From: Halichondria panicea
Taxonomy: Eukaryota; Porifera; Demospongiae; Suberitida; Halichondriidae
Length of the DNA: 64,000 bases
Reading direction: 5' to 3'
Assembly (NCBI RefSeq): GCF_963675165.1
Contig: NC_087379.1
Span: 3,042,201-3,106,200, forward strand
The translations under genes were made by a program, and so were the position numbers. The notes beneath the pieces were generated by a model. That model was not told where the DNA came from. It saw only the letters and a program-made list of their open reading frames with translations, and ran no database searches. Shown one piece after another: positions 40,701-63,346 of the stretch. How positions within the stretch are numbered: the stretch's first letter is position 1; each line of letters begins with the position of its first letter.

Positions 40701-43700
40701 GTGCAGCAATTTCTTTCCATCGAGTTTCAGTATTTTTACGCTTCAAAATGGGGCAGATAAGTCCTATGGCCATGGGAGACCCACGGCAGTACTTAACGAT
40801 TTCGCCGACGTAGGTGGAGAGGGAAGAGGGGTCGGCATTCAGCCAGCTGCCCATTAAGACACGAGATTCCGTATCAGTAAGATCTAGGTTATAAATAAAC
40901 ATTTATTATCCATGCAATTTCAACACATTCTGAGCAACTTTGGCAACAGAAATTGCATATGACTGCGTTGTTGTGAATGCAGGTGCATGTAGTGATCATG
41001 ACAGCTTAATCATAATTATAGGTACTGTTAGATATTATAGAAAGACTCCTAGCTTATACCACATTGACGCCACAACACTTCATTGGTCATTCATTTCTAT
41101 GTTCATATAGTGATACATACTACTGATTTTAACATCATTCGTACAACACTCCGGTTGTGAGACGTAAAACTAGCCGAGGGTTTGGCACTAGTTTTTATGC
41201 ATGGTCATGTAGCATACATGTAAATAAGATATACCACAACTATAATAATTATACTGTATTTACTTGATTAAACGCCCGGGCGTTTATTTCATATCAAAGT
41301 CTGTAAAGGGGGCATTTAAACGAGATGGCCACTTATTCGAAATGGGTGTTTATTGGTCATGTCTACTCCAAACTCTTGCACAGCAGCAGTTATTATGCGC
41401 TTTTTGGCTGCTGCCACAGCTCTCAGCTTAAGGTTACGGTATACTAATTGCTCATGAATAATTCATAAGATATTTATTTTCTTTATTTCTTATCACTACA
41501 TTATTTTTGTAACTAGCAATGATTATCAATGAAAAGAGAACATGAAACAATGCTAGCTATTATTGTAGCTAAAAGTATCTATGTCTTATAATCCAATGAA
41601 GTGGTCTGAGGTCAGCTGGAAAAAACTGAAAATTTTAGCGTAAAGTTTTATTGACTGCATAGCTTCCAGGTTGTCTTTCTGACCAGTATTCGATGCCTAA
41701 AGACTTACTGGAGGGCGACTCGAAGAGATCTTGTTCATAGAGACCTTACAGCAAAAAATATATCCTTGTTACTACTCTACAGTCGCCATATTAGCCTACA
41801 AAAACAGCTAGAAATGGCCGTAACTTTGTTTCAACTTACTCTCTTGGGAAAAACTCTTCGAGTCGCCCTGCCCCTTTATTCGTATAATAAGAAACAGCAG
41901 ACTATACGGTAAGGAGGGGTTTCTTGATGCTTAGAATTGACGCCAAGTGACCATTGCCAGATGAGAGCCATTTTACTAGTGTACTGCATTGAACACCCAC
42001 GCAAATTTGAGCGTGGGTGGAACAGTGTACCGTAACCTTAACTTAAGTCATAGGAGTGGTGTTTCTCCCTCTGTGTTGGTATCTCTCTCTCTCTCTGCCA
42101 TCATAAAAATCTATGCTGCCATGCTTGCAACGTGCTAGTTTAGCTCCACCCACAGTGCCACGCTCATACATGAGCGATTATTTAAGATGGGCGTTTATTG
42201 ACAAGGATAGAACTTTTACCATGGGCGTTTAAACAAGATGGGCGTTTAATCAAGTAAATACGGTACTCAAAAGATATAATTATTCTCTTTGTAGGTGTGG
42301 TGCACGTTAGTTTGCCTAACCATACCTATAGGATACAGCCTAGAAAGGGTAATTATGTGGAGAAAAAAATTGTTATATTCCAGCCAACCCTCACCTTCAG
42401 ATACTGAAATATTATGGACAATTCGAGTCTGGACTTCGCTAGCAATGGCGGCATTTCGTGAGGTGATGATCACATTGCGACAGGCAGAGAAGGCCTTAGC
42501 TACTTCAGGACTCCACACATCCTCCAAGATTAACAGGGATTTTTGGCTCTTGCTCATCACCTAGTAACAGCAAATTTTAATGAGATATATCAGGGCGGCA
42601 TACCCTCGCCGCTAAAATTTGCATTCAGGTACTAGTTGTATGTCTGAGTACATGTATGTGCAAAGGCAACCCTAAAACCCACCTAATTAACAACAATTTT
42701 CCAGGTGTATGTATGACCCTGGGTTTCCATAGCCGCCGATGTTACATACTAACAGGCAAGGTTTCATCTAGGATTAGAAGTTTAGGAGGAAACATTTCGA
42801 GAAATATTTGGCCATGCCCACTTGACCACACCCCCTATTACATGCTAATGCATCACAGTAGTTACACATATCATATAGACAGTAGATTCTACCTTATGAT
42901 TGGTGGTTACATGTAGTTGAATGTGATGATATCGATGTCATTATTCTACAACATTTGGGGGGGGGGGGAAGAGAGGTTAACCCCTACCCCACTAGATGAA
43001 ACCCTGACAGTTGAAATAACAATTTAATTACCTTATTTTATTAAATTTTTCTGGGGACAGTTAGACCCTCCCTTTCAAAGCGTGGCCCTTATTTCTGTAT
43101 GACACCTGTACTGTATATTGCTGGGGTTAATTGCACACTTTCCTGCCCTCAGGCTTACCACATACAACTCAAACAACAAAATGTGCTGTGGCTAGGCCTG
43201 TGCCAAATATTCAAATTTTTTCACCTATTATTCATTCACATTTGATCAGCCTATTATTCAACTTCATCACCCTATTATTCAAATTGATGTCACCTATTAT
43301 TCACATACATCACAGCGAAACAAAACACCTATAAAATATATAGCACCAAAAAATGGATCAGGTTCTGCCATGTAAAATGTGGGTGTGTTCTGAGCTACTG
43401 CGCATGTGCAACTCAATGAATATCATTAAACTGTTTTCACAGTGCCTATTATTCAAATTGTAAAAAGACTGCCTATTATTCAAAAAATTATTCCGGAATA
43501 TTTGGCACAGGCCTAGCTGTGGCTGACATAAAAATCTCTCCCATTTCCCTGAATTGGTTTGAAAGAGGCTTAGGTTGTTTGATATTATGTAACTGTTACA
43601 TTAGAGGCAAGAACAAGTGTACTCGTTATACTGCTTCCCTATTTGTTCTATATATTTATTATAATTATACATGCAATTGTATAAACACACACACATTTTG

Positions 43701-45132
43701 CAGGTAATCAGCGGCAGCCTCCACGGTGTGACGTGGTATATGTACATCATGTACATTTTCATCCAGTCTCAAAATGAGAGTCACTAGGTTATCGAGCAAC
43801 TTGGCTTTGTCCAAGTGATGATCAGCCATGTGACCCACTTCGAACCAGTTGACCCCACCGGGGAACACTGTCCGTAGCAAATCAGCATCCCTCACTGCCT
43901 CAGCTGTTAGCACCGTCTTTCCAGTGCCACCCATGCCATGGACCACCAGCCACCTGAAAGGAAGCGGTTGAAATAATAAAATTAGGGTGCAAAGGGTACG
44001 TATGTAATTTTAGGAACCATTTTTAGATGTGAAAAGAAAGGCCATGCAAGTAGCTAGCTTGGTAGCACACGTAATGCACATACGGCAATTGAGCACCCTG
44101 CATGCCATGCAAAATCTATGACGGAAACTAGCCGAGGGGTGGTCTATCTGCACAGCCGCACTCCACCTATTGCCCATCGCGATCTCTCTGCCAATTATAT
44201 GTAAACTGTACCAACAATATTAAATCTCAAAATTGTAGTCACACATTCTTACGTGTCTCCGTTAGCCATTTTTCTGAGTTCGTTGCGGATTTTCTCAATG
44301 AGGCCTTTCCTCTCCAGGTAGACCTTGGGCTGGAGTGGCACGCGCCCTTTCTCTGTCACCTTCTTCACTGCATGAGCACAGAAAGAGTGGCTCAATAAAT
44401 TGTACAGCTCCATAGCAAAAGGAAGGCAGTTTTATGTATACATGCACACCTTTGATAAGCCTGACTTCTTTAATGCCAAGTTGATTGAAAATATACCTGG
44501 GCCAGGGAAATTTTGGACAGATTTTTCTTTATCCAACTCAGAAGTATAATTGAACGAGTGTGCTTAGTTTACCTACCATATTTCTCGTCATCCATAACTC
44601 CAGACTCCTTGGAGAGCAGCTGTCCTATTTCTTTGCATTTCTCAGAGGAGCTCAACAGTACACGTACAAAACGAGTGAAATCTGAGGAGTCCCTCTCCTC
44701 CAAAAGATATAAGAGATGTTTCGCCTGGTTCTCAACTGTATCTTTCCCTCTGTGTGTGTGGAAAGGGCGGAGATTGCAGTGTGGTAGTGAGTGTGTAGTG
44801 TAGCATTTAGAAATTACTGTTTGTGCCGTGAAAAAGGAACAATCTTTTATGGCGATTTTGTCCAGCACGTAGCAATCTAGTCTAGTATAGTGCTGGTACA
44901 AAAGCGTCATGAGATTATGATTAATTATGATTGTGTAAATTCCAGCAACAAATTGGACTCACTCAGCATCATGTTTCTGCATGTCCTGTGTATTGATAAC
45001 TCCATTTGCCACAAGTTTGGGCAGTATCTCTACTAGACAGCCACCACTCAGTGAGCTCACTATTGCCTCCCGATGAGCACGCAGCGTGGCATGGTGGCCC
45101 CCCTTCAACACTCCTTCACCGTAGCTAAACAT
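31731..45132 (-). CDS. APAF1-like: APAF1-like apoptosome protein: CARD, NB-ARC, WD40 repeats; 24 exons, 1292 aa
   Basis: Exons: 44963-45132, 44577-44749, 44253-44367, 43695-43953, 42395-42560, 40619-40883, 40293-40432, 39939-40063, 39387-39629, 39121-39278, 38632-38758, 38409-38534, 38114-38245, 37768-37977, 37365-37487, 36978-37226, 36598-36762, 35202-35333, 34416-34577, 34012-34134, 33734-33865, 33397-33519, 33104-33223 and 31731-31871; all join in frame. Residues about 10-115 are CARD-like (LRAHREAIVSSLSGGCLVEI...LLSKESGVMDDEKY). NB-ARC follows: P-loop GMGGTGKT (Lys165), Walker B-type LLILEDVW (248-255), sensor NVIITSRN, GSPMAIGL (about 329-336), then the winged/helical part ending LYQIHDLFLDYLKHL. 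From about residue 605 there are roughly 13 WD40 repeats. Length and order equal human APAF1 (1248 aa), which assembles the apoptosome and recruits a CARD caspase. Sensing of cytochrome c cannot be judged. Confidence 0.9.
32365..32701. mobile_element. MITE family G, copy 2 (TIR TACCGTACTTATTCGATTTAA)
   Basis: The left TACCGTACTTATTCGAT and right ATCGAATAAGTACGGTA ends are inverted and nearly identical. The interior matches 30982-31336. No coding capacity. It lies in the last intron of the APAF1-like gene. Confidence 0.8.
35792..36371. mobile_element. 580-bp element of family C with perfect 9-bp TSD GTACTTATG
   Basis: The ends TAGCCTCGATTCAAGGCCG and CAGCCTGGAATCGAGGCTA are inverted and flanked by GTACTTATG on both sides (35783-35791, 36372-36380). 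Inside, GAAGAGGCTCTCATCTAC (36029) and its inverted copy (36165) form a further fold-back. A related end starts at 35443. The 9-bp duplication suggests Mutator-like mobilisation. It lies in an intron of the APAF1-like gene. Confidence 0.85.
40064..40080 (-). repeat. C homopolymer serving as polypyrimidine tract
   Basis: On the minus strand about 15 C residues run directly into the AG acceptor of APAF1-like exon 8, with no T in the tract. The exon must be recognised through this pure C run. The homopolymer may vary in length. Confidence 0.75.
41254..42263. mobile_element. MITE family A, copy 2, split by a nested TTAA element
   Basis: The ends match those of 688-1054 (TTTACTTGATTAAACGCCC) and are flanked by TA. 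The interior aligns with copy 1 (CTCCAAACTCTTGCACAGCAG, TTCTCCCTCTGTGTTGG) except for a 606-bp insertion at 41432-42037. It lies in an intron of the APAF1-like NB-ARC region. Confidence 0.85.
41432..42037. mobile_element. piggyBac-like non-autonomous element (TTAA TSD, ends GGTTACGGTA)
   Basis: The ends GGTTACGGTA and TACCGTAACC are inverted and flanked by TTAA at 41428-41431 and 42038-42041. Copy 1 of the host element shows the uninterrupted site. A TTAA duplication is the signature of piggyBac. No transposase is encoded; two internal blocks GACTCGAAGA and TCTTCGAGTC are mirrored. Confidence 0.85.
43193..43515. mobile_element. hAT-like MITE (TIR TAGGCCTGTGCCAAATATTC, 8-bp TSD GCTGTGGC)
   Basis: Inverted ends TAGGCCTGTGCCAAATATTC are flanked by a perfect 8-bp duplication GCTGTGGC (43185-43192, 43516-43523). 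The interior repeats CCTATTATTCA about seven times. The TAGGxxTGTGCC end and 8-bp duplication fit hAT. It lies in the intron following the P-loop exon of the APAF1-like gene. Confidence 0.9.
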
Positions 45133-47668: not shown

Positions 47669-50432
47669 TTAAAGTTTGGCTACAGTTAGTTTTTCTTTCA
47701 TTGTAAATCTACTTAACCTGAGAGTTGATATGTCAAATGACAGTGGTCTGTCGAGAACCATTTCAGTTAGTACTTGACCAATGGCTGGAGCCAACTTGAA
47801 TCCAATACCTGCAAATCGATGTGTGTACGTAGTATGTTATGAAGAAGTCTGCTTGTACAGTAATTACATTTATATGTTCAAGCACTCAGTAAGACATTTA
47901 AAAAGGCAGGTACATATACCTGAGAACCCTGCAGCAAACAGCAGGTTAGAGTGACCTGGCACTTCATCCACAATTGGCAAAATGTCAGGAGTCAGCTAGA
48001 GGTGTGTGAATGAGAACACACAATATAGATACAAACTATAACCAGAGAAGGGCATGCTAATTTTGCACAGTTTGTGGCTGGGGTTAGGAGTTCAATTTTT
48101 CTTATCAACTAACTGAGTAGACACATGGCTCAAAGATGGCTGGTGTTGTAGCGACTCCTCTGAGGTAAGTTTTGATGAACTGGACCACCTTCTCCACTGA
48201 CTCTGGTCCAGCCCCTCCCTCATCACGATCATCAACCTCTATGTCACGAGCTGTTCGGTAATACACCTGCATGGAGAAAATGAAGCCTTATACTGCGGGC
48301 ACACATACATTCCATCGACATATTTACTGTCCCAATTTCTAGAAGCTGGTAATGAGAAGTAAATTTACGTACTTGGTCACCGGGAAAGCTCAGCCAATTC
48401 TTACCTTGATAAGTCCAGGGTATTCATATTGTGGGAAAGCATAAAACTTGTCCATCTTCAGCACCTCATTCTCATAGACTAGGATGGGGAATTTGTCGAG
48501 GGAGAATTTATCAGGACAGTCCACTTTAAAGTACAATACCTCTGCCCTCTGTACCTGAGGGGGCGGGGGTCAAATACATACCTACATGTATCATGACAGT
48601 ACATTACTGCTGTGACAAAGCATGGTGAGGACAACTCGGAAAAGAGGTATTGAGTACGAATGACATAATTATGAATGTTGCACAAATACTGGTAAAAATG
48701 GCTTAGAATGAGTGCATCACTTCAATTTAGGAGCCATAGATCTAAACTAGTCACATGCAGTATACCATTCGCTGGAAACTTTAAATGTTGGTTAAAGTAT
48801 CTTAGTTAGATACCTTGATAGGCAATTGCACCCCGAGCTTGCTGATGAGTTTGGGGGCCCAGGCTCCTGCAGTGATGACTACCTTCCGTGAGCTGAAGTC
48901 TCCCTTGTTAGTTCTCACAATCACCCTGTCTCCAGGAACAATGTCCATCACACAGTGGTTGTCAAGCAGCACACCACCTCCGCGCACAAACAAGTCCTGT
49001 AGATGAAGTTACACGTCATGTGCACTTCTCAGGGTTTTAACTTATGAGAGTGTGCGTGTGGGATTGCAGATATAGCTTTCAATATCTGAATAGTGGAATA
49101 TGTCTTATTACACCATTGTTTTCACTACGTACTTCTAGCACCATACTGTTTGAAATGCGACTTTGCATAACTTATTCGGTTAATAGACACACTTCGAGGT
49201 TACAGTAACATACGTACTTGAAAGGTTGCTACTATGAGTGAAGGTGCTAGCAGTTTAGTGGAAGGTCTGTTGTCCCAGACACAGCTGAAGTCGTCAGGCA
49301 TACTGATCTGGTCTGGAAACCTGCTGTTCATCTGGGGATTAGCAAACATAGGTAAAGAGGTGACGAAAGAGCAAAATACATATTGACCTACGTACACTAT
49401 ACACTGCACTGAACATGTTATGCCATCTCTGTATTGTAAACAACTATAAGATTGAGCCACCAATATTTGTCAACAGTAAAAACAGAATGAGAAAATGGAC
49501 TCATCCAATATTTGAGAGCTCTCCAGCATTATTAAGATCATTCAGTTCACATTAAACCAAGGGATTAGAATAACCAGAGGGAGTGAGAATGAGCTTCTAA
49601 AATATAGTAAATATAGTCAACAGGGAGGGTATACGTCATCCCGGAGATTGCATAAAAAATTGCCTATGATGTTAGTGACACAGAACCACTTATACCTCTC
49701 TGGCAGAGATGAGGGGCTGCTCCACACTGTCCTCCCTCACTGCATCAATTGTACGCTGTATGTAGGGACAGTCCTTGCGACCAAAGGACACAACACTCAC
49801 TGGTCTGTACATGCATAAATTAATTATTGTGTGAAAGCGCCTCAGTAGAAATATTCTAACACCATAGGCTGGTGCAGCGAAATCGTGGTAACTATTGAAA
49901 GCTATGTGTGGGGGATGAAGAAAATAGGGGCAGAAATTAGGGAAAGAGTGGTGGGTGGAGAAGAAAAGGAAAAGAGTAAGGGGTAGCGAGAAGAAAGCAG
50001 CTCTCTCCTTTTCTTTCCCACATCAGCTTACGTGCAGAGCTTTTTGCCACATTTATCACTGAGCTCCTGGTATACTTTAGCTGACTCAGCAAACATATGG
50101 TTGACAGCGTCCGGCTGAGTAGAAAACTTCCTCGTAAACCTTGACCCCCCGTGAGAGCTGCCTCGGGTGTGGAGGGCATGAAACTGCATTTACAGAACAT
50201 GTATGGTACAGTGACTAAACATTTGTACACACAATAACATGCTATAAAGACAGTTCTGTACATTACAGAAATAATTTTTAATTTGGCAGCACATGCAGCT
50301 TAATTAAGTGTTCTGCACCCTCTTGCTTACCTGCTCCAGAAGCAGCACTCTCCTGACTCCATTCTTGATGAGCTGGTATGCAGTAGAGCTTCCCTCCACC
50401 CCTGCTCCCACTACTATCACATCATAGTCCAT
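47669..50432 (-). CDS. PIPOX-like: Peroxisomal sarcosine/pipecolate oxidase-like flavoenzyme, copy 1, 9 exons, 392 aa
   Basis: Exons 50331-50432, 50032-50183, 49696-49804, 49218-49331, 48814-48996, 48405-48554, 48114-48266, 47920-47995 and 47669-47808 join in frame. The N-terminus carries the FAD Rossmann motif ([12 protein letters not shown], Gly9/11/14). [11 protein letters not shown] follows, then [19 protein letters not shown] (Lys270), FEPCVYSLTPD (Cys318) and [13 protein letters not shown] (Lys351). These positions correspond to the oxygen-activating Lys, the covalent-FAD Cys and the carboxylate-binding Lys of monomeric sarcosine oxidase. The protein ends AKL, a peroxisomal PTS1 signal. 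The enzyme should oxidise a secondary or N-methyl amino acid, giving hydrogen peroxide. Human PIPOX has 390 aa. A diverged tandem copy lies immediately upstream. Confidence 0.88.
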
Positions 50433-50720: not shown

Positions 50721-53700
50721 TTAAAGCTTTGGTTTAAAAAACCTGGCTACTCTAAACGCTGTGAGATCAAAGGACAACGATTTGTCAAGTGTCATTTCAG
50801 TGAGCAATAGTCCAACTGTGGGAGAAATCATAGCCCCTCTGCCTGCAGGGATGATTGTCAGAACGCTCTATTGAAGGGTTACAAAATCAGTTATTTGGTG
50901 AAATGAGCAGTCACCATTTCATAATTACAATGCAGAGATGATGTTTAGAGGCATGAAACTCACCTGACATGCCAGCAGCAAACACGATGTTGGGGTGTGC
51001 AGGAACTTGGTCAATGATGGGCAGCCTATCGTCGGTCATCTGAACCAAGCAAATCATAGTTTTCATGTAAAGCAGCTTTATACATACACCTATATACAAT
51101 GGGAGAATGTGGCTAAGCTGACGTAAAAGGATAAAAGTACGTACAAGAGGCTCTGAGAGTGTCTTCAAAGATGATAAAGCAGCAAGCATTCTACTAGTTT
51201 TATCAACCAATGAAAGATTGCAGTAAACTAGGCCTAAGGGGTACGTGTTAGTAAATGACCACTGTGGGTATATATCCCTTGTACTTTATTACACAGGTAC
51301 ATGTATATGTATTACTTAACTAGGCAGATTTGCACTTTACAGAGTAACATTACTGCGACAATCTTACGGAGTAGACACAAGGCTCAAAGATGGCTGGTGT
51401 AGTAGCGACTCCTCTGAGGTAAGTTCTGATGAACCGGACCACCTTCTCCACCGACTCTGGTCCAGCCCCTCCCTCATCACGATCATCAACCTCTATGTCA
51501 CGATACGTGCGATGGTATACCTGGCAATTTAGAGCAATAGAAATATTATTAACTAACTAATGTCACGATAATGCCACGGTATACCTGGGGAATTCGGGCA
51601 ATGTTTTTGCTAATACATAGGCTAGGGGCAAAACTACAAATCCGTAGAAAATTAAGTGCTATTTACTGCAACCAAACTCACCTTAATCATGCCAGGGTAT
51701 TCAAACTCAGGGAAAACAAAGCAGTGCTCCTTGCCTCTCTCGTATATCACCCACGGAAACACCTCAGGTTTGAAATCATCTGGATTATCCACCTTCCAAT
51801 AAAGTACCTCAGCTCTTAATATCTGCACATCCACAAAGAAACAAATTGAGTCAGTGCATTTGTGTAGTGCACACATGAAGTTACTTGATGGAGGTTGATT
51901 GAGTAACAATGGTAACTAAATGCTGTAGCTAAAGATTTTAGAAAAAAACTGTGAGCACCTTGATAGGCAACTGCACCCCGAGCTTGCTGATGAGTTTGGG
52001 GGCCCAGGCTCCTGCAGTGATGACCACCTTCCGTGAGATGAAGTCACCCTTGTTAGTTCTCACAATCACCCTGTCTCCAGGAACAATGTCCGTCACACAG
52101 TGGTTGTCAAGCAGCACACCACCTCCGCGCACAAACAAGTCCTGTCAAGGAACATGGTAAATAATATCAATGCGGCGGTTATTGCTACTTGCAGGCCTAA
52201 TTCAGAGTGAGCTAAAGAAACGGCAGACAGAGTTCTGTGAAATACTCCACTATGTTATACAACCATTCACTGCAGGTACCTGGAAGAGACACAATATTGC
52301 TGTCATGTTTAGGAGCTTCATGTCTGGCTCAATGAGACCAATGTAGTCCTCAGGCACACACAGTCGTGAGGAGTAGCGCTGATTGATCTGGAATAATTAA
52401 ACTTAGCTACTGGAGTTTGCAGAATCTTTGCAACACACCAGTAAAAGTGTAGAGCGTTACGCGTTCCTTATATGGATTTTGTGTACACACTGTGGTCTGT
52501 TTTACTAGGAGCATTTCCCATATAAGGAACCACAGTGCTACACACTTCTATTCATGTGTTGCAAAGATTCTGCAATCTCCAGTATAATATAGTAGTTAGA
52601 ATAACTACCTAGTTATATATTCATAGCTCCTACAGTGCAAATCAATCATACCCTCATGATAAAGTAAGAGAGCGAGTCCATTTTGAAACCAAATTAGCGG
52701 GCCCTAAGTGCTACCTTAGAAAAATATGTCAATCTAATTCTACAATTACACAGCTGCACACATAGCTGCACCTCCTTTGCTGAAATGACTGTGCTAGGTA
52801 TACCATCTTTCTTGAGGCGGCTAATAGTCTGGTTTAGCACAGGGTCACTGCCTGAGTTGAAACTGAGCACATCTATTGGACTAATGATGTGTGTCATGGG
52901 AACGATCTTGAGACAATGCATACGCATACCAAACGTAAGACACATGAATCATGTGAATGTAATTACATAATTACAAATATGACACAGACTGCACGAAAAC
53001 AAAAATTAAGTCAGCCCCACATTTACCAATAAAGCTGCTTCCCATTCTCTCTCTGTAACTCAGCAAACATGTCAATAGAGAGGGTGACCATTCTAGAGAA
53101 TTCCCTCAGATGACTGGTCACTGCTTGCCTAGTACACCTGGACCCACCGTGAGAGCTTCCTCTGGTGTGCCGCGCATGAAACTGTATGAATTAAATCGAT
53201 TGAAGTAATGTACGTTAGCCATGTGGGTTGAAAAATACGGCAGTGATAGGTAGCTCCTCACCCTAATAGAAGCACCAAGATCAAAAATAGGTGCCCAGTA
53301 AATTCTAGATAAAAATTATAACGCGGCTTTTAATCAAAGCTAAAATATACAGTAGATTCTCGTTAATCCAGGACAGTGCAGCTTGGCCGGACCGAGAGAT
53401 GCCGTATTTCAGAAAATAGCCGCAGCTAAAAAGCGGTCCCTATAATCTAATGACTCGAGGATAATGAATCATTAATTTAACGAATTTGATCTGCCAAACC
53501 ACACTCAAAACGTCATATCTGCCCGTGATAAATGTATAAAAAACCTATACTTTGAGGCAGCCATTACTGGCCGGTATACGGAATAGCGAGTGGCCACATT
53601 TCAGGGTGAAGTTTGTGCAGTAAACATCTAGCTAGCAATCCGTGCCAAACCAAATGGCCGGTATATCGAGGTGGCTGTACTTCAGAGAGCCGGAATAGCG

Positions 53701-54013
53701 AGAGTCTACTGTACATACAAAAATAATTATCCACTTATACAGCCTCATGGAACAGTTATTAGACCTACTATATAGTAACGCTATTAAAGCACCACTCCAA
53801 CACAAGTATTAATCTAGAGTTCTATTTGTGTAATTTTTGAGGTGCTGTAAATAGAAAGACGGTATAAAGTTACTACTATGTGACGAGAACATCTAAGGCT
53901 GTAAACTTTACCTGCTCCAGAAGTAGCACTCTCCTGACTCCATTCTTGATGAGCTGGTATGCAGTAGAGCTTCCCTCCACCCCTGCTCCCACTACTATCA
54001 CATCATACTGCAT
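50721..54013 (-). CDS. Sarcosine/pipecolate oxidase-like flavoenzyme, copy 2 with altered active site, 9 exons, 382 aa
   Basis: Exons 53912-54013, 53027-53181, 52772-52880, 52280-52387, 51959-52141, 51682-51822, 51368-51520, 50964-51039 and 50721-50842 join in frame, with the same nine-exon structure as copy 1. [34 protein letters not shown] (Lys266) and FEPCVYS (Cys314) are kept. The segment GIGFKLAP of copy 1 is GRGAMISP here, so the substrate-carboxylate Lys is replaced by Met347. The C-terminus is PKL, a weaker PTS1-like tripeptide. Exons 1, 5 and 7 are nearly identical in DNA to copy 1, while exons 2, 3, 4, 6 and 9 are clearly diverged. It probably retains flavin but has a changed or lost substrate. 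Introns contain a TA MITE and a pogo-like MITE. Confidence 0.83.
52410..52582. mobile_element. TA-target MITE with 27-bp TIR (CTGGAGTTTGCAGAATCTTT)
   Basis: The ends CTGGAGTTTGCAGAATCTTT and its inverted copy with one change (CTGGAGATTGCAGAATC) are flanked by TA. The interior carries a second inverted pair, CCTTATATGG and CCATATAAGG, around a short loop. It is 173 bp long and lies in an intron of oxidase copy 2. Confidence 0.85.
53350..53711. mobile_element. pogo/Tigger-like MITE, copy 2
   Basis: The ends CAGTAGATTCTCG and CGAGAGTCTACTG are flanked by TA. The interior matches 5597-6026 in reverse orientation, including GGCCGGTATA, AATGGCCGG and the AGCCGCAGCTAAAAA block. It lies in the first intron of oxidase copy 2. 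Confidence 0.8.
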
Positions 54014-54066
54014 AATAATGATAGCCGGATAGGTAAAGATCATCAATAACAATGTACATTCTACTG

Positions 54067-54136
54067 TACTGCTAGACTGGCGGCGACAGCCCCTCGTCGC
54101 GCTACACGCTCGGGCGGCTGTCACCGCCAGTCTACT
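54067..54136. repeat. GC-rich hairpin (AGACTGGCGGCGACAGCC and inverse)
   Basis: CTAGACTGGCGGCGACAGCC is mirrored by GGCTGTCACCGCCAGTCTA around a GC-rich loop containing CTCGTCGCGCTACACGCTCG. The composition differs sharply from the AT-rich surroundings. It begins about 54 bp upstream of the start codon of oxidase copy 2 and may be a small foldback insertion in its promoter. Confidence 0.7.
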
Positions 54137-54298
54137 GTACTGCATGGACAACACTGCATGGACACAGCCTAGCCACTGCTGAAGCAACTCAAGCCCCAGT
54201 ACAGTGTGCATAAGTTTTAGGCCTGGGAGCCTGGGAGACATACTATACAGAGAGAGACAATTGGGTATGTAAAAACCACCAGACTAGATGATCTCTAA

Positions 54299-54556: not shown

Positions 54557-55281
54557 TGAGAGGTGAATAGTGCCAAAAAAAAAACGAATTTGCTGTGTTA
54601 GGAGGCGGCGGTGTTTACTTGGTGGCGGCGGCTTAACCTCGAGGGTGGCGGCAGTGTCAGTTGTTGGCGGCGCTTAACCTCCAGGGTGGCGGCAAGTGTC
54701 AGTTGGTGACGGCAATGTGGTTGGTGGCGGCGGCTTAGCCTCGAAAATGTAAAGGCCAGCCGTGAATATAGAACCACTTGACCTTAGCTAATAGAGAAAC
54801 AGAGGGTTGCTCCAGCTAGCCTCGAGACCATGAGCAGTCTGATATCAGGTCAGCGCTAGAGCAACTGTCTGGACTGGTCTTGACCACTCCACAATCCCTC
54901 CCAGACACTAAAAACAAGCTTGAGAAGTAGTCTGCCAAGATAACTTTAATTAGTTAAAGGTCAAGTGGTCCAACATTATCTTATTATTCACATCCACATT
55001 AATATATTCGAGGCTAAGCCGCCTCCACCAAGTAAACACCCGACGTAACCTCGAGGTTAAGCCGCCGCCACCGTAGATAGAGTCTCTACACTCTCATGCC
55101 GCCACCAAAAAACACCAGCCGCCACCATAGATAGAAGAAGGAAACAGCCTCCGCCACATTCGAGGTTAAGCCGCCGCCACCTAGTAAATACCCGCCGCCA
55201 CCTTCGAGGTTAAGCCGCCGCCACCAAACAAACACCCCCCCCTCCTAAAAACATCCTCCTTTTGGCACTACTCACCCCTCA
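54557..55281. mobile_element. Foldback element built of GGCGGCGGCTTAACCTCGAGG repeats, 10-bp flank duplication
   Basis: The ends TGAGAGGTGAATAGTGCC and GGCACTACTCACCCCTCA are imperfect inverted copies, flanked by TATAATTGTA on both sides (54547-54556, 55282-55291). The left arm is an array of GGTGGCGGCGGCTTAACCTCGAG units and the right arm the same units inverted. Nested inverted blocks include CCACTTGACCTT and AAGGTCAAGTGG. The element ends 90 bp before the start codon of the first receptor gene, so it forms most of that gene's upstream region. Confidence 0.85.
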
Positions 55282-55371: not shown

Positions 55372-58300
55372 ATGGTTTCCTTGCTAGCAGTTATTCTAGC
55401 TTTACAACTAGTGCAGGGCTCTTACAGCATTGATGAATATGAAACTGTGATTGCTGTAACGAGTTCCACACATTCTGAGCTAAATCCTGACTGTCTCAAT
55501 GGATCTCACTTCCAATACAGTATCGATGAGTTACCTTCCAACATATCGAATGGAACTTTATTGAGATTTTGCTCCAACTCTATAGTGCTAAAAAGAAACA
55601 TGGCACTTTCTGATGCTAACCGAATAGCTTTCGTGGGCTTTGAATTTACTAAACTGACTTGTATTGATGAGAGTGGTGTGGGAATAGAATTGAGCAACAT
55701 TCAAGATTTGGAAATAAACAACATCGCTATTGAAGCCTGCGGGAGAGTTGCCAGCATAGACACATATCCTTATCGAAACGTCAAGGCCAGTCTCATCATT
55801 CAGAATTCTGTTAACATTAATCTGAGGAATGTGACGATCACTAGTAGCCCTGGGACTGGACTGGCCTTATTCTACAACAGCGGATCAATCGAAATCATTG
55901 ACTCTATTTTCGAGAGAAGTGGACTTGATGGTCAAACAGGTGGCAATGGAGTATATGTAGAAACTGGACCCTCCACCTATATAGTTAGTGATTCACCAGC
56001 AAATTATGATATTAGGAACTGCTCCTTTCTAAACAACAGCGCTGTTACTGGGAAAGATAGTACTATCAAAGGTTTTAGTCGTTTTGACAAAGGTGGCGGG
56101 TTGTGTATGTATGTTCGAGGCAGTGAAAATGTCGAAATTGATATCACAGACTCCCTGTTTATTGGAAATCAAGCTCAAAAGCATGGAGGTGGTCTCTTTG
56201 TTGCTTACAATGGAAAATGCACAAACAACACTGTAATAGTTTCGAAAACTGAATTTCGTACCAATACAGCAAAATACGGTGGTGCAGTGTACTCGGGATA
56301 TCTACACAGTCGGTACCCTAACTTTGTGACCCCTCAAAATAGCTCATTGAGGTTCGTCTTCGTAAACTTCATTGATAACAGAGCTGAGTATGGTGGAGGT
56401 TTTAGCTTATTCTCTACCAAGACCCCTAACCAAGACTCCAATGACAAAGTTAGACTTGAAAACTGTTATTTGACTGAAAACAGCGGCCAGTATGGGGCAG
56501 CTGTAGCTCTTCTCCCCAATGCTTGGAACATTAACACACCAGGTTACTTACCCACTCCAGTTTTTGTGAACTGCTCCTTCACAAAAAATGTCGTTATGAG
56601 GAAACAATTATCAAACATTGGTCAGTATTACAACGAGTACTCCAAGGGCTCTGGAGCGTTTAACTGTTTCAATCACCGAGTCCATTTTGAAGAAAATACA
56701 ATTTTTGAAAACAATATCGGAACTGCAATGTTTCTCGACTCATGTGTGAGCATATTCAAAACGAACTCTTTTACACGTTTCGAGAATAACACTGGTTACC
56801 AAGGAGGTGCTGTGTATGAGCTGTCTTCAGTGATATTTATTAGTGACGGGTCCACCTTACGTTTCAATGGCAACACGGCTGATGATAAAGGCGGGGCTAT
56901 ATACGAACACACATCGTCGATGCTCATTTACCACTATTCAAAAACATGTTTCATTGATTACAACGAAGACAGAACAGAGGTCGCAGATAGAAACATTACA
57001 GTATCTTTCAGGGACAATTACGCTGGTCGATACGGCCATTCGATTTACGCATCCTCTTTGAGTCCCTGCTACAATCGTTTTTCTTTCACCGCTTCCGATT
57101 TATCTATGGACATTTTCAATCAAGTCGGTAACTTTACTTACTCACCCGCTGGAAGAATCAAAGAGCTAGCCACCGCAGCTAACCACTCAAACGTAACTGA
57201 TGAGAACTGGTCGGGCCATCTTTCGTTCATTCCTGGAAATGAGATGGAGCTTCCTATTGTTGATATCGATGATTTTGGGCAGGATGTACAAATGAGTTAC
57301 TTGGTAACGATTGAAAACCATGGTGATGCCAATGTTTCAAGCAATCACTACAACTCAGAGATTTCAAGCCACAAAATTTTATTGTTTGGAAAAGAAAACG
57401 ACAAAGCCACTGTTACATTGTCTGACACATCCCCTCGTCAAAATGCTGTTTCGTTCCAAATTACGATGCTACCTTGCCCTCCTGGGTTTATTCTAGATCG
57501 AGTGTCAATGGAATGCATCTGCTCATTCAATACGGATGAAACTTACGTTGGAATCGATAATTGCAACCTCACACTTCACAGAGCGTACAGCAAAAAAGGA
57601 TACTGGTTTGGCTATAAAAACAACCAAACTGAGAATGAAGACTCTCTCATTTCTGGGTATTGCCCTTCTGGTTTTTGCTCAACAGGGGGTGAGAGACGCC
57701 TTCTTCCCGGGACAGCTAATCGAGAAGAACTAAATGAAATCATGTGCTCCTATTCACGAAGTGGGACCCTCTGTGGCCGCTGTACAGACACCTCTTCAGT
57801 ATATTACCACAGCATGCAGTTTAAGTGTGAGTCAGACTCGTTATGTCACCTGGGCTGGTTGTTTTACATACTCAGCGAATTAATACCTGTTACTATAGTT
57901 TTCCTCCTGATTATGTTTTTGAACATTACCTTCACTTCGGGCCTAGTTAATGGGTTTATTTTCTATAGCCAAGTAATCGAGGTAGTGCGTCTTCTATCAA
58001 GCGATTTGATTCGCTCTTCACCGACAATCAAATTTATTAATAACATATATTCGCTGATTTATTCGAGCTTTTCTCTGGATTTTTTCTTCCATGACAATCT
58101 GTCGTACTGTCTCTGGAAAACTAGTAAAGCAATCGACATGGTAGCATTTAAATATGTAACGCTGCTGTATGCCTTCTGCCTTGTAATTTTTATCACGGTT
58201 ATCATAAAGAAATGCACAATGAAGTGTTGCTACAGTTATAAGCTTTCTCGCTACTTCTCCTGGCTCACAAAGTACTTCAGTTTTCATGGCAACATTATTC

Positions 58301-59118
58301 ACGCTCTTTCTGCATTTTTGATTCTTTGCTATGCTCAATGTGCTCAATCGTCCGTACTCTTATTGACAAGTGTAACGGTCTATAATAAGGGCTCGAATTT
58401 GTACAAAACATTGGTGTACTATGATGGAGAGATTGAATGGTTTAGTGTTGAACATTTGCCATATGCCTTGCCCGCTATTTTTCTGTCAATATTTGTCCTT
58501 ATCCTACCACCAATTCTCCTGATCATCTATCCACTACACAACAAAGTACTCTCACTCTTGAGAATATCCGAAACAAAGTGTGTACAGTTTCTATTCCGAC
58601 CTCTCGATAAACTAAAGCCATTCTTCGACTCATTCCAAGGCTGCTTTAAGGATGAATTTCGGTTTTTCTCCGGTCTTTACTTTATTTATCGTTTCTTCAT
58701 CATGTTCAATGTTCTTTACAACTACTTGCAAGACAGCTTCTTTTTTATCGAAATCCAGCTACTGCTCATGTTGGTCGTCCATGCTGTATGTCAGCCATAC
58801 AAGAAGCGATTACACAATATAATCGATACCCTCCTGTTCGGAAACCTTGCTGTCATCATTGCTATCACGTACTACAATCTAACCTATTCTAACACCCTAT
58901 CCGCTACGAATATCGATGTTACTGGATTATCAGTTGTGTCATGCATACTCATTATCCTACCAATTGTTGTGGCTGTCTGTATTTTGGTTTACGCTTTCTG
59001 TGTGAAAAAGTGCTGGATGAAAGTACGTGCACAGCGAAAGGAAGGTATTGATATGATTGAAATCGACAATGATGAATTCCCCGACAGAGGTGTTTATGAA
59101 TCCTTTGAAAAGTTCTAG
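55372..59118 (+). CDS. Beta-helix ectodomain / Cys-rich / multi-pass membrane protein, copy 1, intronless, 1248 aa
   Basis: One uninterrupted ORF. Residues 1-17 (MVSLLAVILALQLVQGS) are a signal peptide. Residues about 90-560 are parallel beta-helix-like, with repeated turns such as NCSFLNNSAVTG, FDKGGGL, KHGGGLFVAYNG, KYGGAVY, EYGGGFSLF, GYQGGAVYELSS and DDKGGAIYEH, and many N-glycosylation sites. About residues 701-830 are Cys-rich (PCPPGFILD, MECICSF, GTLCGRCTD). From residue 826 about eight hydrophobic segments follow (LGWLFYILSELIPVTIVFLL, LSAFLILCYAQCAQSS, LPAIFLSIFVLILPPILLII, FFIEIQLLLMLVVHAVCQPYKKR, IIDTLLFGNLAVIIAITYY and others). A charged tail ends VYESFEKF. It looks like a surface receptor or adhesion protein with a 7TM-like or channel-like C-terminal block. 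I know no characterised function. Its neighbour is a tandem paralogue. Confidence 0.9.
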   Translation: MVSLLAVILALQLVQGSYSIDEYETVIAVTSSTHSELNPDCLNGSHFQYSIDELPSNISNGTLLRFCSNSIVLKRNMALSDANRIAFVGFEFTKLTCIDESGVGIELSNIQDLEINNIAIEACGRVASIDTYPYRNVKASLIIQNSVNINLRNVTITSSPGTGLALFYNSGSIEIIDSIFERSGLDGQTGGNGVYVETGPSTYIVSDSPANYDIRNCSFLNNSAVTGKDSTIKGFSRFDKGGGLCMYVRGSENVEIDITDSLFIGNQAQKHGGGLFVAYNGKCTNNTVIVSKTEFRTNTAKYGGAVYSGYLHSRYPNFVTPQNSSLRFVFVNFIDNRAEYGGGFSLFSTKTPNQDSNDKVRLENCYLTENSGQYGAAVALLPNAWNINTPGYLPTPVFVNCSFTKNVVMRKQLSNIGQYYNEYSKGSGAFNCFNHRVHFEENTIFENNIGTAMFLDSCVSIFKTNSFTRFENNTGYQGGAVYELSSVIFISDGSTLRFNGNTADDKGGAIYEHTSSMLIYHYSKTCFIDYNEDRTEVADRNITVSFRDNYAGRYGHSIYASSLSPCYNRFSFTASDLSMDIFNQVGNFTYSPAGRIKELATAANHSNVTDENWSGHLSFIPGNEMELPIVDIDDFGQDVQMSYLVTIENHGDANVSSNHYNSEISSHKILLFGKENDKATVTLSDTSPRQNAVSFQITMLPCPPGFILDRVSMECICSFNTDETYVGIDNCNLTLHRAYSKKGYWFGYKNNQTENEDSLISGYCPSGFCSTGGERRLLPGTANREELNEIMCSYSRSGTLCGRCTDTSSVYYHSMQFKCESDSLCHLGWLFYILSELIPVTIVFLLIMFLNITFTSGLVNGFIFYSQVIEVVRLLSSDLIRSSPTIKFINNIYSLIYSSFSLDFFFHDNLSYCLWKTSKAIDMVAFKYVTLLYAFCLVIFITVIIKKCTMKCCYSYKLSRYFSWLTKYFSFHGNIIHALSAFLILCYAQCAQSSVLLLTSVTVYNKGSNLYKTLVYYDGEIEWFSVEHLPYALPAIFLSIFVLILPPILLIIYPLHNKVLSLLRISETKCVQFLFRPLDKLKPFFDSFQGCFKDEFRFFSGLYFIYRFFIMFNVLYNYLQDSFFFIEIQLLLMLVVHAVCQPYKKRLHNIIDTLLFGNLAVIIAITYYNLTYSNTLSATNIDVTGLSVVSCILIILPIVVAVCILVYAFCVKKCWMKVRAQRKEGIDMIEIDNDEFPDRGVYESFEKF

Positions 59119-59608
59119 CCTGAGTGTGTAAACAACTGAAATTATTTATATCCTTAAATTAATGTATTGTTTAATTATAACGCTGTTGATAATGTATTAT
59201 TCTTATAAGTTTGTTTTGCATTCATGAATTGATCTATAATTATTGTGAACACTCCACCATGGCAAAACAACATGCATTAGATCTACTATGACTTGTACAC
59301 GTAGATTCTATAATTATGGACACACCATTGTATGTGCAGCAGGTGTAGATCTAGTGGATTAGGGAGTGTGACAATACTGTGTGTGCATGCTCTAATTAAT
59401 GGCATTACTGAATTATCTACATTGTACACTAGATATAATTGTACCATAGTGTTATCAAATCTACATTGTGCTGAGAGTGCACGATTGTGCCATAGAAGAT
59501 TGTACAACCAACCACAATGGTCTCAACAGATGGTTAAATTATGACCTATTGCACTCTTATCTGATGTTCCCACAGAATGATGTATCAGATGCATCACAAC
59601 AAGACAAG
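59119..59608. other. Spacer between the two receptor paralogues
   Basis: 490 bp of AT-rich DNA with no ORF of its own, RNA gene or complete transposon. It must contain the 3' end of copy 1 and the promoter of copy 2. It does not resemble the GC-rich foldback sequence upstream of copy 1, so the two copies have unrelated upstream regions. Confidence 0.5.
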
Positions 59609-62600
59609 ATGCATATGCTACTTCTAGCCACGTTACTGGCTGCTTTGGCTCTACACCCAGCTAATGCATACCAGGAGTATCCAACTGTTATTGCAGTGTA
59701 CAATGCTACTGGTGAGTCTGCTATTGTGAATTGTAGTAGTGGCGCAAACTACCGCTACGAAATCAATGACCTACCACTTGGTAATATCACCAGCGGGACA
59801 TTATTGAGACTGTGCTCCAAGTCCTTTGTACTAACGAAAAATGTGTCGCTCTCCAATCTTGAAAACATTGCCTTAGTTGGCTACAAATTTCCAACAGTGA
59901 GGTGTGAGAAGGAAACAAATCTAGGTATTGTCCTAGGATCCATTCGCAATCTTGAGCTACACAACTTCACAGTTGATGGTTGTGGAGTGATGACGACTAT
60001 TAATCCGAAAGCCGACCACAACATTAAGTCTGGTGTTATCATTCAGTATACCACTAATATCACTGTGAATGGTATCAACGTTACGAAAAGTCCTGGGAGT
60101 GGTTTGGCCCTATTTTACAACAATGGATCAATTCGAGTTGAAAATTCAGTGTTCGGAAAAAATGGGGTGGATGGGCACACAGGTGGGAATGGGGTCTACA
60201 TGGAAACTGGGCCTTCAACATCTATTGTCAGCGGCTTAGTAGCAGAATACACATTTACACAATGTGATTTTCTTTTTAATACTGCCGTAACAGGCAAAGA
60301 CAGTATCATCAAAGGCTTCAGTAGATTCGACAAAGGAGGTGGCCTATGTGTGTATATCCTTGCCAGTGAAAAGCATAAAGTAACCATTTCAAATAGTCGT
60401 TTTATAGGAAATCGAGCTGAACATTATGGAGGTGGACTATTTGTTAGCTATATTGGTAAAGCAAGGGACAATAATGTTAGAGTTTCAAATTGTAACTTTT
60501 CGATGAACACTGCAACATTTGGAGGTGGAACGTATGCAGGATACCTCCATACACGTTTGCCAGTTTTAGAAACACCACTAAATTGTTCTCACATTTACGA
60601 ATATCTGAATTTCACGGAAAACAGTGCGAAATTTGGAGGAGGTTCTAGTGTTTTTGCTTCAAAGACTGCAAATAATGATTTCAGTGCAATTGTTAACTTT
60701 GTGAACTGTACTTGGACAAAGAACATAGGTCAGTACGGTGCAGCAGTAACTATTCTCCCTAACGCCTGGAACTTGTACACAGAAGGTTATTTACCAACTC
60801 CAAGATTCATAGGCTGTACTATATCCAATAATCGAGTGAGAGACAGCAACATTTTCAAGAAAGGAGTCTATGCTGAGTATTCCAAGGGCTCGGGAGCATT
60901 TTATTGTTATGGTCATAACATTTCGTTTCAAGGACTAACGCTCATAGAAAACAACCAAGGCTCAGCAATGTACTTGGGCTCATGCTTAGCCATTTTTCAT
61001 AAGAGTTCTATCACATATTTTGTAAATAACACAGGCTACCAAGGAGGAGCTATATACGAACTATCTTCTGTAGTGTACGTTCAAGATGATTCTACTCTCT
61101 ATTTCTCAGCAAACACAGCTGAAGACAAAGGCGGAGCCATTTATGAGCATACATTTTTCATGCATATATATGATTACTCCAAGACATGCTTCATTGACTA
61201 CGTCGATAATATCGAAGAAGTGGCCGAACGTAACATCTCAGTTACATTTATTGATAACTTCGCCGGTAGGTATGGCCACTCAATATATGCCTCTTCTTTA
61301 CAACCTTGTTACAATCGCTTTTCTTTTTCTGCCGCAAACCTATCTGTTGACATATTCGACCAAGTCGGTAATTTCACCTACTTCCCTGAAAACAGACATA
61401 TGGAAATCGCGACTGCCATCAATCACTCAAATATTACTGCAGAAGAGTGGTCAGAGAATCTTCTATTCATCCCTGGAAAGAACATGAGATTACCTTTTGT
61501 TGACTTAGACGATTTGAACCAGGAAGTTCGAACAAGCTACTTAGTAACTATTCAAAATGGCTCTAATGTGACCGTTAATCGAGATTATACCGATATTTCA
61601 AGTAACATTCTACTTTTGTATGGAAAAGATAATACCACTGTTACATTATCCGACACATCTTCCCGACAAATAGCACTCACTTTTAATATAACGATGCAGG
61701 CCTGTCCTCCAGGTTTCATACATGATGATGGCTCTCAAGGCTGTGTATGCTCCGCTGGTTCAAATGAGAGTTATGCTGGAATTGAACATTGCAAAGTAAG
61801 TCTCATGAGAGCTTATAGTAAATATGGGTATTGGATTGGCTATATGGAGAACAAAACTGAAAATGAAGACTCATTGATTTCTGCATATTATAATCCCACT
61901 GAAAATTTCTCTGATCCCACTGGGAACGGCCGTCTACTTCCCGAAACTGCTGACAGAAAAGAGCTGAATGCCATTATGTGCGATGAGACACGGACAGGAT
62001 TTCTCTGCAGTCAGTGCATGGAGAATATGACAGTGCACTATCATAGCCGGGAATTTGCATGTAAGTCCAACAAGTATTGTACCTTTGGCTGGTTGTTTTA
62101 CATTCTTAGTGAAATAGTTCCTGTCACCATAATCTTTCTTTTCATTATCTATTTTAACATTCCTTTCACTTCTGGGCTTGTAAATGGCTTTATATTTTAT
62201 TGCCAAATGGTTGAAGTGATTCAAATAGTTTCCAGCGGCCTCATCTCTTTGTCAGAAACCGCTCAGATTATAAATAAAGTTCATACTTTCATATACTTGA
62301 GCACCACCTTAAATTTTTTCGTTGTTGATGACCTTTCATTTTGCCTATGGGACAATGCAAGTGCAATGTCAATTGCGGCTTTCAGTAATGTTACTCTTCT
62401 CTATGCACTCGTTCTTGTGGTACTTGTTACCCTTGTGTTCAGAAGCTGCTCCTTTAGGTGTACATGTAGACATAACTCTTCAGGGTACTTTCCACTTGTA
62501 CCAAACCCGAAATTTCAAGGCAGCATCATTCACGGCTTAGCTGCATTCCTGATTCTTTGTTATGCACATTGTGGTCATTCCTCATTGCCGTTGCTCCTGT

Positions 62601-63346
62601 CTGTGAGTGTATACAGCAAAGGACCAACTGCTTACCAGAAAATGGTGAATGTTCAACCAGATATTGAGTGGCTTAGTGGTCAGCATTTACCTTATGCAAT
62701 ACTGTCTCTTCTACTGGTGTTCTTCATGCTTTTCTTACCTCCAATTCTTCTGGTTGTGTACCCACTGCATTACAAAGTCCTAGCTTTCTTAAGAATTGCC
62801 GAATTTCGATGCGTCCAAATTGTATTTAGCCCTCTGGATAAATTGAAACCCTTCTTTGATTCATTTCAAAGCTGCTTCAAGGACAAATTTCGTTTTTTCT
62901 CTGGACTCTATTTCATTTATAGACTTAGTATGATTGTGACTGTTTTTAACCACAGTGCCCAAGTAAGCTTTTTCTTTATCGAAGTTCAATTGGTGGTTAT
63001 GCTTACTCTTCACGCTTTATGCCAGCCATACAAAGAACATTTCCACAATGTGATTGACACTCTCTTATTTTGTAATCTTGCTGTCATCAATGCTATCACA
63101 TACTACAACGTCTCTGCTTCTATGGCAAACGTGACGGATCTAAACCTCTCGGCAACTACCTGGTTACAAACGATACTGATCATTTTGCCTTTACCATTTG
63201 TGTTGGTGTTTTTAGTTGCACAAACATCTTGTGTACGTGCTTGTTGCAGAAATTCAAGCTTAAAAAGTGTTTCTTCTGAGGAAGATGACTTGCCAGACAG
63301 AATGCAAGTCAACTATCACACACAGGACAATCAAAACAGTAGCTAG
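59609..63346 (+). CDS. Beta-helix ectodomain / Cys-rich / multi-pass membrane protein, copy 2, intronless, 1245 aa
   Basis: The frame is open from 59468, but the Met at 59609 begins a signal peptide (MHMLLLATLLAALALHPANA) and aligns with copy 1, so that start is preferred. Domain order equals copy 1: beta-helix turns (FDKGGGLCVYI, HYGGGLFVSYIG, TFGGGTYAGYLH, GYQGGAIYELSS, EDKGGAIYEHTF), the Cys-rich module (ACPPGFIHD, GCVCSAG, GFLCSQCMENM) and the multi-TM block (FGWLFYILSEIVPVTIIFLF, DKLKPFFDSFQSCFKDKFRFFSGLYFIYR, LCQPYKEHFHNVIDTLLFCNLAVINAITYYN). CGRC of copy 1 is CSQC here. The cytoplasmic tail is different (SSLKSVSSEEDDLPDRMQVNY...), Ser- and acid-rich, suggesting different signalling or trafficking. 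Like copy 1 it lacks introns, in contrast to all other genes in the window. Confidence 0.9.
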   Translation: MHMLLLATLLAALALHPANAYQEYPTVIAVYNATGESAIVNCSSGANYRYEINDLPLGNITSGTLLRLCSKSFVLTKNVSLSNLENIALVGYKFPTVRCEKETNLGIVLGSIRNLELHNFTVDGCGVMTTINPKADHNIKSGVIIQYTTNITVNGINVTKSPGSGLALFYNNGSIRVENSVFGKNGVDGHTGGNGVYMETGPSTSIVSGLVAEYTFTQCDFLFNTAVTGKDSIIKGFSRFDKGGGLCVYILASEKHKVTISNSRFIGNRAEHYGGGLFVSYIGKARDNNVRVSNCNFSMNTATFGGGTYAGYLHTRLPVLETPLNCSHIYEYLNFTENSAKFGGGSSVFASKTANNDFSAIVNFVNCTWTKNIGQYGAAVTILPNAWNLYTEGYLPTPRFIGCTISNNRVRDSNIFKKGVYAEYSKGSGAFYCYGHNISFQGLTLIENNQGSAMYLGSCLAIFHKSSITYFVNNTGYQGGAIYELSSVVYVQDDSTLYFSANTAEDKGGAIYEHTFFMHIYDYSKTCFIDYVDNIEEVAERNISVTFIDNFAGRYGHSIYASSLQPCYNRFSFSAANLSVDIFDQVGNFTYFPENRHMEIATAINHSNITAEEWSENLLFIPGKNMRLPFVDLDDLNQEVRTSYLVTIQNGSNVTVNRDYTDISSNILLLYGKDNTTVTLSDTSSRQIALTFNITMQACPPGFIHDDGSQGCVCSAGSNESYAGIEHCKVSLMRAYSKYGYWIGYMENKTENEDSLISAYYNPTENFSDPTGNGRLLPETADRKELNAIMCDETRTGFLCSQCMENMTVHYHSREFACKSNKYCTFGWLFYILSEIVPVTIIFLFIIYFNIPFTSGLVNGFIFYCQMVEVIQIVSSGLISLSETAQIINKVHTFIYLSTTLNFFVVDDLSFCLWDNASAMSIAAFSNVTLLYALVLVVLVTLVFRSCSFRCTCRHNSSGYFPLVPNPKFQGSIIHGLAAFLILCYAHCGHSSLPLLLSVSVYSKGPTAYQKMVNVQPDIEWLSGQHLPYAILSLLLVFFMLFLPPILLVVYPLHYKVLAFLRIAEFRCVQIVFSPLDKLKPFFDSFQSCFKDKFRFFSGLYFIYRLSMIVTVFNHSAQVSFFFIEVQLVVMLTLHALCQPYKEHFHNVIDTLLFCNLAVINAITYYNVSASMANVTDLNLSATTWLQTILIILPLPFVLVFLVAQTSCVRACCRNSSLKSVSSEEDDLPDRMQVNYHTQDNQNSS

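Follow-up and report, generated by a model that had tools for sequence, protein, structure and literature searches.

Pmp proteins are described as adhesins in Chlamydia pneumoniae, with Pmp motifs required for adhesion (PMC2997323), and trichomonad Pmp proteins are reported to increase adhesion (PMC6701047). The corresponding Pfam model, PF02415 (Chlam_PMP), is reported for 1448 proteins, of which almost 200 are non-bacterial (PMC11166332), so that, as far as that account goes, Pmp-type repeats are already known in kind from eukaryotes. The present analysis concerns a pair of adjacent genes, here copy 1 and copy 2, in a 64,000-nucleotide stretch of the genome of the sponge Halichondria panicea (contig NC_087379.1, positions 3,042,201 to 3,106,200; hereafter the window). 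Both products are predicted to carry a Pmp-type beta-helix ectodomain, followed by a Cys-rich module and a multi-helix membrane block. Judged from sequence, the ectodomain is of an already known type and its pairing with a multi-helix block would be the new part. The favoured reading, to which a probability of about one half is given, is that of a surface receptor or adhesin in which the beta-helix would bind and the membrane part would transduce.

55372..59118, plus strand: copy 1, single-exon coding sequence of 1248 amino acids (open reading frame call; 54% identity to copy 2)
59564..63346, plus strand: copy 2, single-exon coding sequence of 1260 amino acids counted from the first ATG (open reading frame call; likely true start at 59609)

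Pmp-type repeats in the ectodomains

The ectodomain evidence comes from curated profiles, motif counts and fold comparison, and concerns the following features.

55549..57171, plus strand: copy 1 beta-helix ectodomain, about residues 60-600 (PF02415, E 3.8e-7; TIGR01376, E 3.2e-9)
59792..61411, plus strand: copy 2 beta-helix ectodomain, about residues 77-616 (TIGR01376, E 1.6e-7; PF02415, E 0.14, below cut-off)
56158..56409, plus strand: run of three FxxN...GG doublets in copy 1, residues 263-346 (motif count)
56857..56907, plus strand: best POMP repeat of copy 1, residues 496-512 (PF02415, TIGR01376 and motif count)

TIGR01376 (NCBIfam POMP_repeat) scores 36.2 bits in copy 1 and 30.8 bits in copy 2, with a cut-off of 15, and PF02415 scores 30.1 bits in copy 1, with a cut-off of 20.6. 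Each ectodomain has four doublets of the form FxxN...A...GG; shuffled sequences average 0.01 and 0.02, and none of 2000 shuffles reaches four. The FxxN motif itself occurs 12 times in copy 1 and 10 times in copy 2 (shuffle means 4.1 and 3.8), counts that were reached by 0 and 5 of 2000 shuffles, respectively. The POMP repeat profiles thus support a predicted beta-helix type, in agreement with a sequence-only reading of this DNA that had called the ectodomains beta-helix-like. The profile search which that reading proposed is answered by these repeat models, and by no lyase or hydrolase Pfam model.

An AlphaFold model of the ectodomain, built from a two-sequence alignment, is mostly beta, with a predicted TM-score (pTM) of 0.55 and a mean predicted local distance difference test score (pLDDT) of 48.8; 148 of its 741 residues lie at pLDDT 70-90 and 410 below 50. 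When this model was compared with the PDB by Foldseek, the first 24 among the best 50 of 553 matches were lyases, polygalacturonases, epimerases and tailspikes, which are right-handed beta-helix proteins. Many tailspikes and beta-helix proteins also occur among the matches to viral models, which are non-significant.

Several observations weigh against a beta-helix. PF02415 reaches only 13 bits in copy 2, under its cut-off. Foldseek gave no match at E ≤ 0.001 in the PDB or in viral models, the best E values being a non-significant 0.019 and 0.0022, respectively; TM-scores normalized by query length are low (0.11-0.21) for the first 24 PDB matches, and immunoglobulin-like chains appear among the listed PDB matches from rank 25 on. 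The profile matches are firmer evidence on the ectodomain than the fold matches.

A multi-helix membrane block beyond current family models

A Cys-rich module follows the ectodomain in both copies, as had been noticed before, and leads to the membrane block and a short tail.

57475..57846, plus strand: copy 1 Cys-rich module, residues 702-825, 11 Cys (Cys listing)
61703..62080, plus strand: copy 2 Cys-rich module, residues 714-839, 9 Cys (Cys listing)
57856..58998, plus strand: copy 1 membrane block of about nine predicted helices, residues 829-1209 (hydropathy, charge tallies)
62090..63229, plus strand: copy 2 membrane block of about nine predicted helices, residues 843-1222 (hydropathy, charge tallies)
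58504..58692, plus strand: end of transmembrane segment 5 (TM5), predicted cytoplasmic loop and first part of TM6 of copy 1, residues 1045-1107 (79% identity over 63 residues)
62735..62923, plus strand: equivalent TM5-TM6 stretch of copy 2, residues 1058-1120 (alignment to copy 1)
58999..59115, plus strand: predicted cytoplasmic tail of copy 1 with acidic DNDEFPDR (alignment)
63230..63343, plus strand: predicted cytoplasmic tail of copy 2 with acidic EEDDLPDR (alignment)

The preferred layout of the block has nine helices, with the N-terminus outside and the C-terminus inside. Segments TM1, 3, 5, 7 and 9 are strong, with hydropathy values of 1.94-3.34 in both copies, and the count of lysines plus arginines in inside loops and tail versus outside loops is 24 versus 6 in copy 1 and 16 versus 3 in copy 2. 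Charge was tallied for every layout with one segment dropped, for the six best with two dropped and for the layout without TM4 and TM6. The earlier estimate of about eight segments gives way here, since eight helices would place the tail outside and each eight-helix layout tallies worse than nine in both copies. Seven helices are a less likely possibility. Removal of TM4 and TM6 yields 18 versus 13 (copy 1) and 10 versus 10 (copy 2), and removal of TM2 and TM3 yields 31 versus 2 and 18 versus 2. The seven-helix layouts that are best by charge were set aside because each loses at least one strongly hydrophobic segment.

Most sequons precede TM1 (copy 1, 18 of 21; copy 2, 27 of 36). Within the block, copy 1 has two sequons in predicted outside loops (909, 1169) and one, 851, where TM1 ends on the inner side; copy 2 has, besides three named below, four outside (931, 1182, 1189 and 1194), one at the outer end of TM6 (1129) and one in TM3 (942). 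With block sequons on both sides, topology is not fixed by sequons alone. The points that tell against nine helices are the marginal hydropathy of four of them (TM2, 4, 6 and 8; 1.31-1.76), the placing of helix borders by hand, the existence of seven-helix layouts that equal or beat nine by charge, which alone cannot separate them, and three copy 2 sequons at 971 (predicted inside loop), 1230 and 1258 (tail).

The QPYK...HNxIDTLLFxNLAVI signature reported earlier is found in both copies. The TM5-TM6 stretch at residues 1045-1107, picked after viewing the alignment, ranks first in conservation among 1211 windows of its length; its 44-residue loop by itself ranks 57 of 1230, and the lower end of the beta-helix (residues 544-595) is as conserved as the stretch. 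The loop follows the pattern PPILLxxYPLH...DKLKPFFDSFQxCFKDxFRFFSGLYFIYR.

No Pfam model fitting the membrane block was found at E ≤ 10, a search in which HMMER filters drop most weak matches, no NCBIfam model matched, and the block profile found no sequence relatives in the PDB. The search proposed earlier for a channel or GPCR (G protein-coupled receptor) family thus returned no fitting Pfam model, and the GAIN/GPS motif said to be missing has no Pfam match within the same limit. Matches to the Pfam models ECSCR (E 0.025) and Mid2 (E 1.9) lie below cut-off, and PHROGs matches at E 0.034-0.3 were rejected as weak. The block is unclaimed by any curated family model searched, and the receptor-like protein is probably undescribed. 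The earlier claim of an undescribed family suits the membrane block, unmatched in Pfam, better than the ectodomain, whose repeat has curated profiles.

The motif order NGxIFY ... KPFxDAY/F ... YK ... N is presumably shared with uncharacterised invertebrate (sponge, cnidarian) proteins whose block resembles NGLIFYAN...KPFLDAY...YWTGL. If so, the pair would belong to a broad undescribed family. A tentative extension, held at clearly less than even odds, is that early-branching animals have an unnamed superfamily of membrane receptors or channels to which the block belongs, paired with Pmp-type beta-helices and signalling through the TM5-TM6 loop; such a receptor layout is absent from the curated libraries searched.

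The tails had been called unrelated. They are indeed mostly diverged, with 8 of 33 aligned residues identical, but both have CV[KR]xC and an acidic cluster before PDR (DxPDR motif). Acidic clusters in the tails of trichomonad Pmp proteins are described as a kind of membrane-sorting signal (PMC6701047), and the resemblance is an analogy only.

Coding integrity and age of the pair

The two genes were placed exactly by the sequence-only reading, which gave both products about 1245 amino acids instead of 1248 and 1260. Over 1223 aligned residues the proteins show 54% identity and 72% similarity. Gap runs between them span 1-16 residues, the longest being one of 16 residues at the N-terminus and two of 5 and 6 residues in the tail; as none exceeds 16, neither coding sequence hides an intron relative to the other. 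A run of 1248 stop-free codons is expected by chance at about 6e-35 per start point, given the mononucleotide frequencies of this DNA, and chance is ruled out for the length of the copy 1 frame.

55372..55428, plus strand: signal peptide-like N-terminus of copy 1, residues 1-19 (hydropathy peak 1.74 at residues 2-20)
59609..59668, plus strand: signal peptide-like N-terminus of copy 2, residues 16-35 (sequence reading alone)

Signal peptides had been proposed for both proteins and signal peptide-like N-termini are seen in both, by eye in copy 2, where no stretch exceeds the hydropathy cut-off of 1.6. Translation of copy 2 likely starts at M16 (59609), as read from the sequence. This position is preceded by an acceptor-like sequence, TTCCCACAG, and an intron in the 5' untranslated region of copy 2 is therefore possible. 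The single-exon status claimed earlier accordingly stands for both coding sequences and applies to the coding parts alone. The pair are the sole ATG open reading frames longer than 270 amino acids in the window, the runner-up having 269, which is consistent with the view that all other genes of the window are multi-exon, but short of proof. No third copy or fragment is present in the window (tblastn beyond the pair gave only E 2.2 or worse). Scans for Rfam families at the gathering threshold and for tRNAs returned none in the window.

A GCC-rich inverted repeat (54598-54692 / 55151-55248, 83% identity) ends about 120 bp before copy 1 and is a possible small mobile element beside its promoter.

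Nonsynonymous divergence (dN) between the copies is 0.35 over 1235 aligned codons and the proportion of synonymous differences (pS) is 0.79, a saturated value, which points to an ancient duplication kept under purifying selection. By these estimates the genes are old tandem duplicates, constrained and functional, and a recent tandem expansion is contradicted. The ectodomain (residues 61-600) and the membrane block evolve alike, with dN of 0.327 and 0.324; the fastest-evolving regions are the N-terminal 60 codons (dN 0.65) and the tail (dN 1.0 over 32 codons). In no 60-codon window does dN exceed synonymous divergence (dS), a test weakened by synonymous saturation. The intron-free coding state either predates the duplication or arose twice. 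Downstream of the two stops, runs of at least seven A or T are absent over 445 and 654 bp, although such marks of retroposition would fade with age, and the flanks of the two copies have nothing notable in common. Retroposition followed by tandem expansion, as once suggested, finds no support in the saturated synonymous sites, the lack of such runs or the presence of two copies only in the window.

Proposed function and alternatives

In the proposed mechanism, the repeats would coil into a right-handed beta-helix, which would stand out from the cell and bind a glycan, the matrix, a neighbouring cell or a microbe. This helix would be linked to the membrane part by its conserved lower end (about residues 544-595) and a disulphide-rich stalk, the TM5-TM6 cytoplasmic loop would relay a signal or dock a cytoplasmic partner, and the short acidic tails may set trafficking. 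The protein would act as an adhesin-receptor and not as a passive anchor, and conservation of the TM5-TM6 stretch counts for this since a passive anchor would not need it. Were the membrane block truly a module of a receptor or channel, the animal surface toolkit would contain a component missed by Pfam, with the TM5-TM6 loop as the site to test. The repeat type that the ectodomain has in common with bacterial adhesins bears on host-microbe contact, and raises the question of bacterial acquisition or independent origin.

Three sets of observations weigh against the adhesin-receptor. The membrane block has no named homologue and its structure model is unusable (mean pLDDT 34), so that signal transduction is a matter of inference. 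Pmp motifs have been argued to be structural, keeping the fold from inside the helix and not forming the binding surface (PMC11166332), and the trichomonad Pmp proteins tested are reported to lie mainly in internal compartments (endoplasmic reticulum, Golgi, lysosomes) rather than at the plasma membrane (PMC6701047). Taken as these two sources present them, the repeats argue for a fold, and for adhesion or a cell-surface position only indirectly.

The alternative that survives best, although unlikely, is a TRP-like or polycystin-like ion channel with the beta-helix as a sensing or mechanical ectodomain. A channel would be in keeping with the many helices, with conservation of the cytoplasmic loop and with the acidic residues that both copies have within predicted helices (E836 in TM1, E1127 in TM7 and D1152 in TM8, copy 1 numbering), and fusions of such ectodomains to TRP-like blocks occur in protists; against it, no TRP or PKD Pfam model appeared in the filtered search described above, and no sequence relative of the block was found in the PDB.

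Somewhat less probable again is a passive adhesin or matrix protein whose helices merely hold the beta-helix at the surface. Trichomonad Pmp proteins are reported to raise adhesion with a simple C-terminal transmembrane domain (PMC6701047), and equal dN in ectodomain and membrane block points to no special role of either, but some nine helices and a highly conserved cytoplasmic loop exceed the needs of an anchor.

A family for self/non-self or microbe recognition under diversifying selection is improbable. The tandem copies, the sequon-rich ectodomain and a sponge source, rich in microbes, would fit it, but the ectodomain is as constrained as the membrane block and shows no window with an excess of dN, which weakly disfavours arms-race recognition, dN/dS evidence being weak under synonymous saturation. 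The earlier proposal of a surface-recognition family is not strengthened by these equal rates. A tethered carbohydrate-active enzyme (lyase or hydrolase) of the beta-helix class is very improbable. Polysaccharide lyases and hydrolases do predominate among the best PDB fold matches of the ectodomain model, none of them significant, but no Pfam model of either kind matched, and the repeats are of the adhesin type.

Other genes of the window

Ten further open stretches were scanned against Pfam, with no gene models being built. Seven matched pieces of known domains, namely RNA ligase, astacin (two), NB-ARC, WD40 (below cut-off), annexin and FAD oxidase, and three matched nothing. Such a mix is in keeping with an animal source, short of proof.

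4476-4883, minus strand: RNA_ligase domain piece (PF09414, E 1.5e-13)
19852-20033, plus strand: coding tandem repeat ahead of an annexin piece at 20979-21143
27545-27916 and 30411-30821, plus strand: pieces of astacin-type metalloproteases, marked by HEFGHALGLEHEHQR / HQFGHALGLEHEHQR
37753-44009, minus strand: NB-ARC piece (43668-44009, E 5.8e-8), then WD40 piece (37753-38019, below cut-off)
48106-49000 / 51359-52145 and 50327-50426 / 53908-54007: direct repeats (94-99% identical) lying among open stretches of the minus strand that are preceded by an N-terminal piece of FAD oxidase (DAO; 53879-54283)

The repeat before the annexin piece presumably resembles the N-terminus of annexin A7/A11, and the order of NB-ARC and WD40 gives an Apaf-1-like layout. 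The astacin pieces may belong to another tandem gene pair. Near-matching translations at 48393-48569 and 51655-51915, the second with no Pfam match, suggest that an oxidase gene was recently tandem-duplicated.

Comparison with known systems

Relatives were sought in bacterial, viral and plasmid collections plus the PDB; as the collections other than the PDB are of these kinds, absence of relatives says little about animals. Contigs were searched with two short peptide patterns per query, followed by confirmation by alignment. For the full-alignment query none of 156 genome-contig stretches and none of 69 viral-contig stretches matching the pattern was confirmed, and for the membrane-block query none of 193 viral-contig stretches. 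A DNA pattern built on KPFFD and later residues gave the two expected matches in the window, none in viral contigs and three in genome contigs, which proved to be Mesorhizobium loci encoding another protein (15-residue match, E 2.2 or worse). Relaxed patterns gave 0 and 2 matches in viral contigs, the two having several in-frame stops and no tblastn match at E ≤ 1. A tblastn search of phages and plasmids with copy 1 gave none at E ≤ 0.01, and PDB sequence matches (copy 1, E 2.7; ectodomain profile, E 0.24-0.28, Dps chains) were rejected as chance. Sponge proteins of this kind, or the combination of ectodomain and membrane block, were not met among the titles and abstract openings listed in searches of open-access literature.

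Among known systems, adhesion GPCRs resemble the pair in having a large adhesive-type ectodomain atop a multi-helix block, but the pair has no GPS/GAIN or 7TM Pfam match and nine helices fit it better than seven, the less likely count. TRP-like and polycystin channels likewise combine a multi-helix block with a large ectodomain, and differ in that no channel profile matched the pair at E ≤ 10. Trichomonad Pmp proteins, as described in PMC6701047, are likewise eukaryotic and join Pmp repeats to a membrane part, with an acidic cluster in the tail as in the pair; they end in a C-terminal transmembrane domain with an ATPITK motif, whereas the pair has about nine predicted helices and the motif in neither copy. 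Chlamydial Pmp proteins (PF02415, TIGR01376) share with the pair FxxN...GGA repeats, a predicted beta-helix ectodomain and a secretion signal. They are described as autotransporters with a C-terminal beta-barrel (PMC2997323), and neither Pmp_M nor an autotransporter beta-barrel gave a Pfam match in the pair at E ≤ 10; in contrast, the pair combines its ectodomain with a predicted helical multi-pass block and a Cys-rich stalk.

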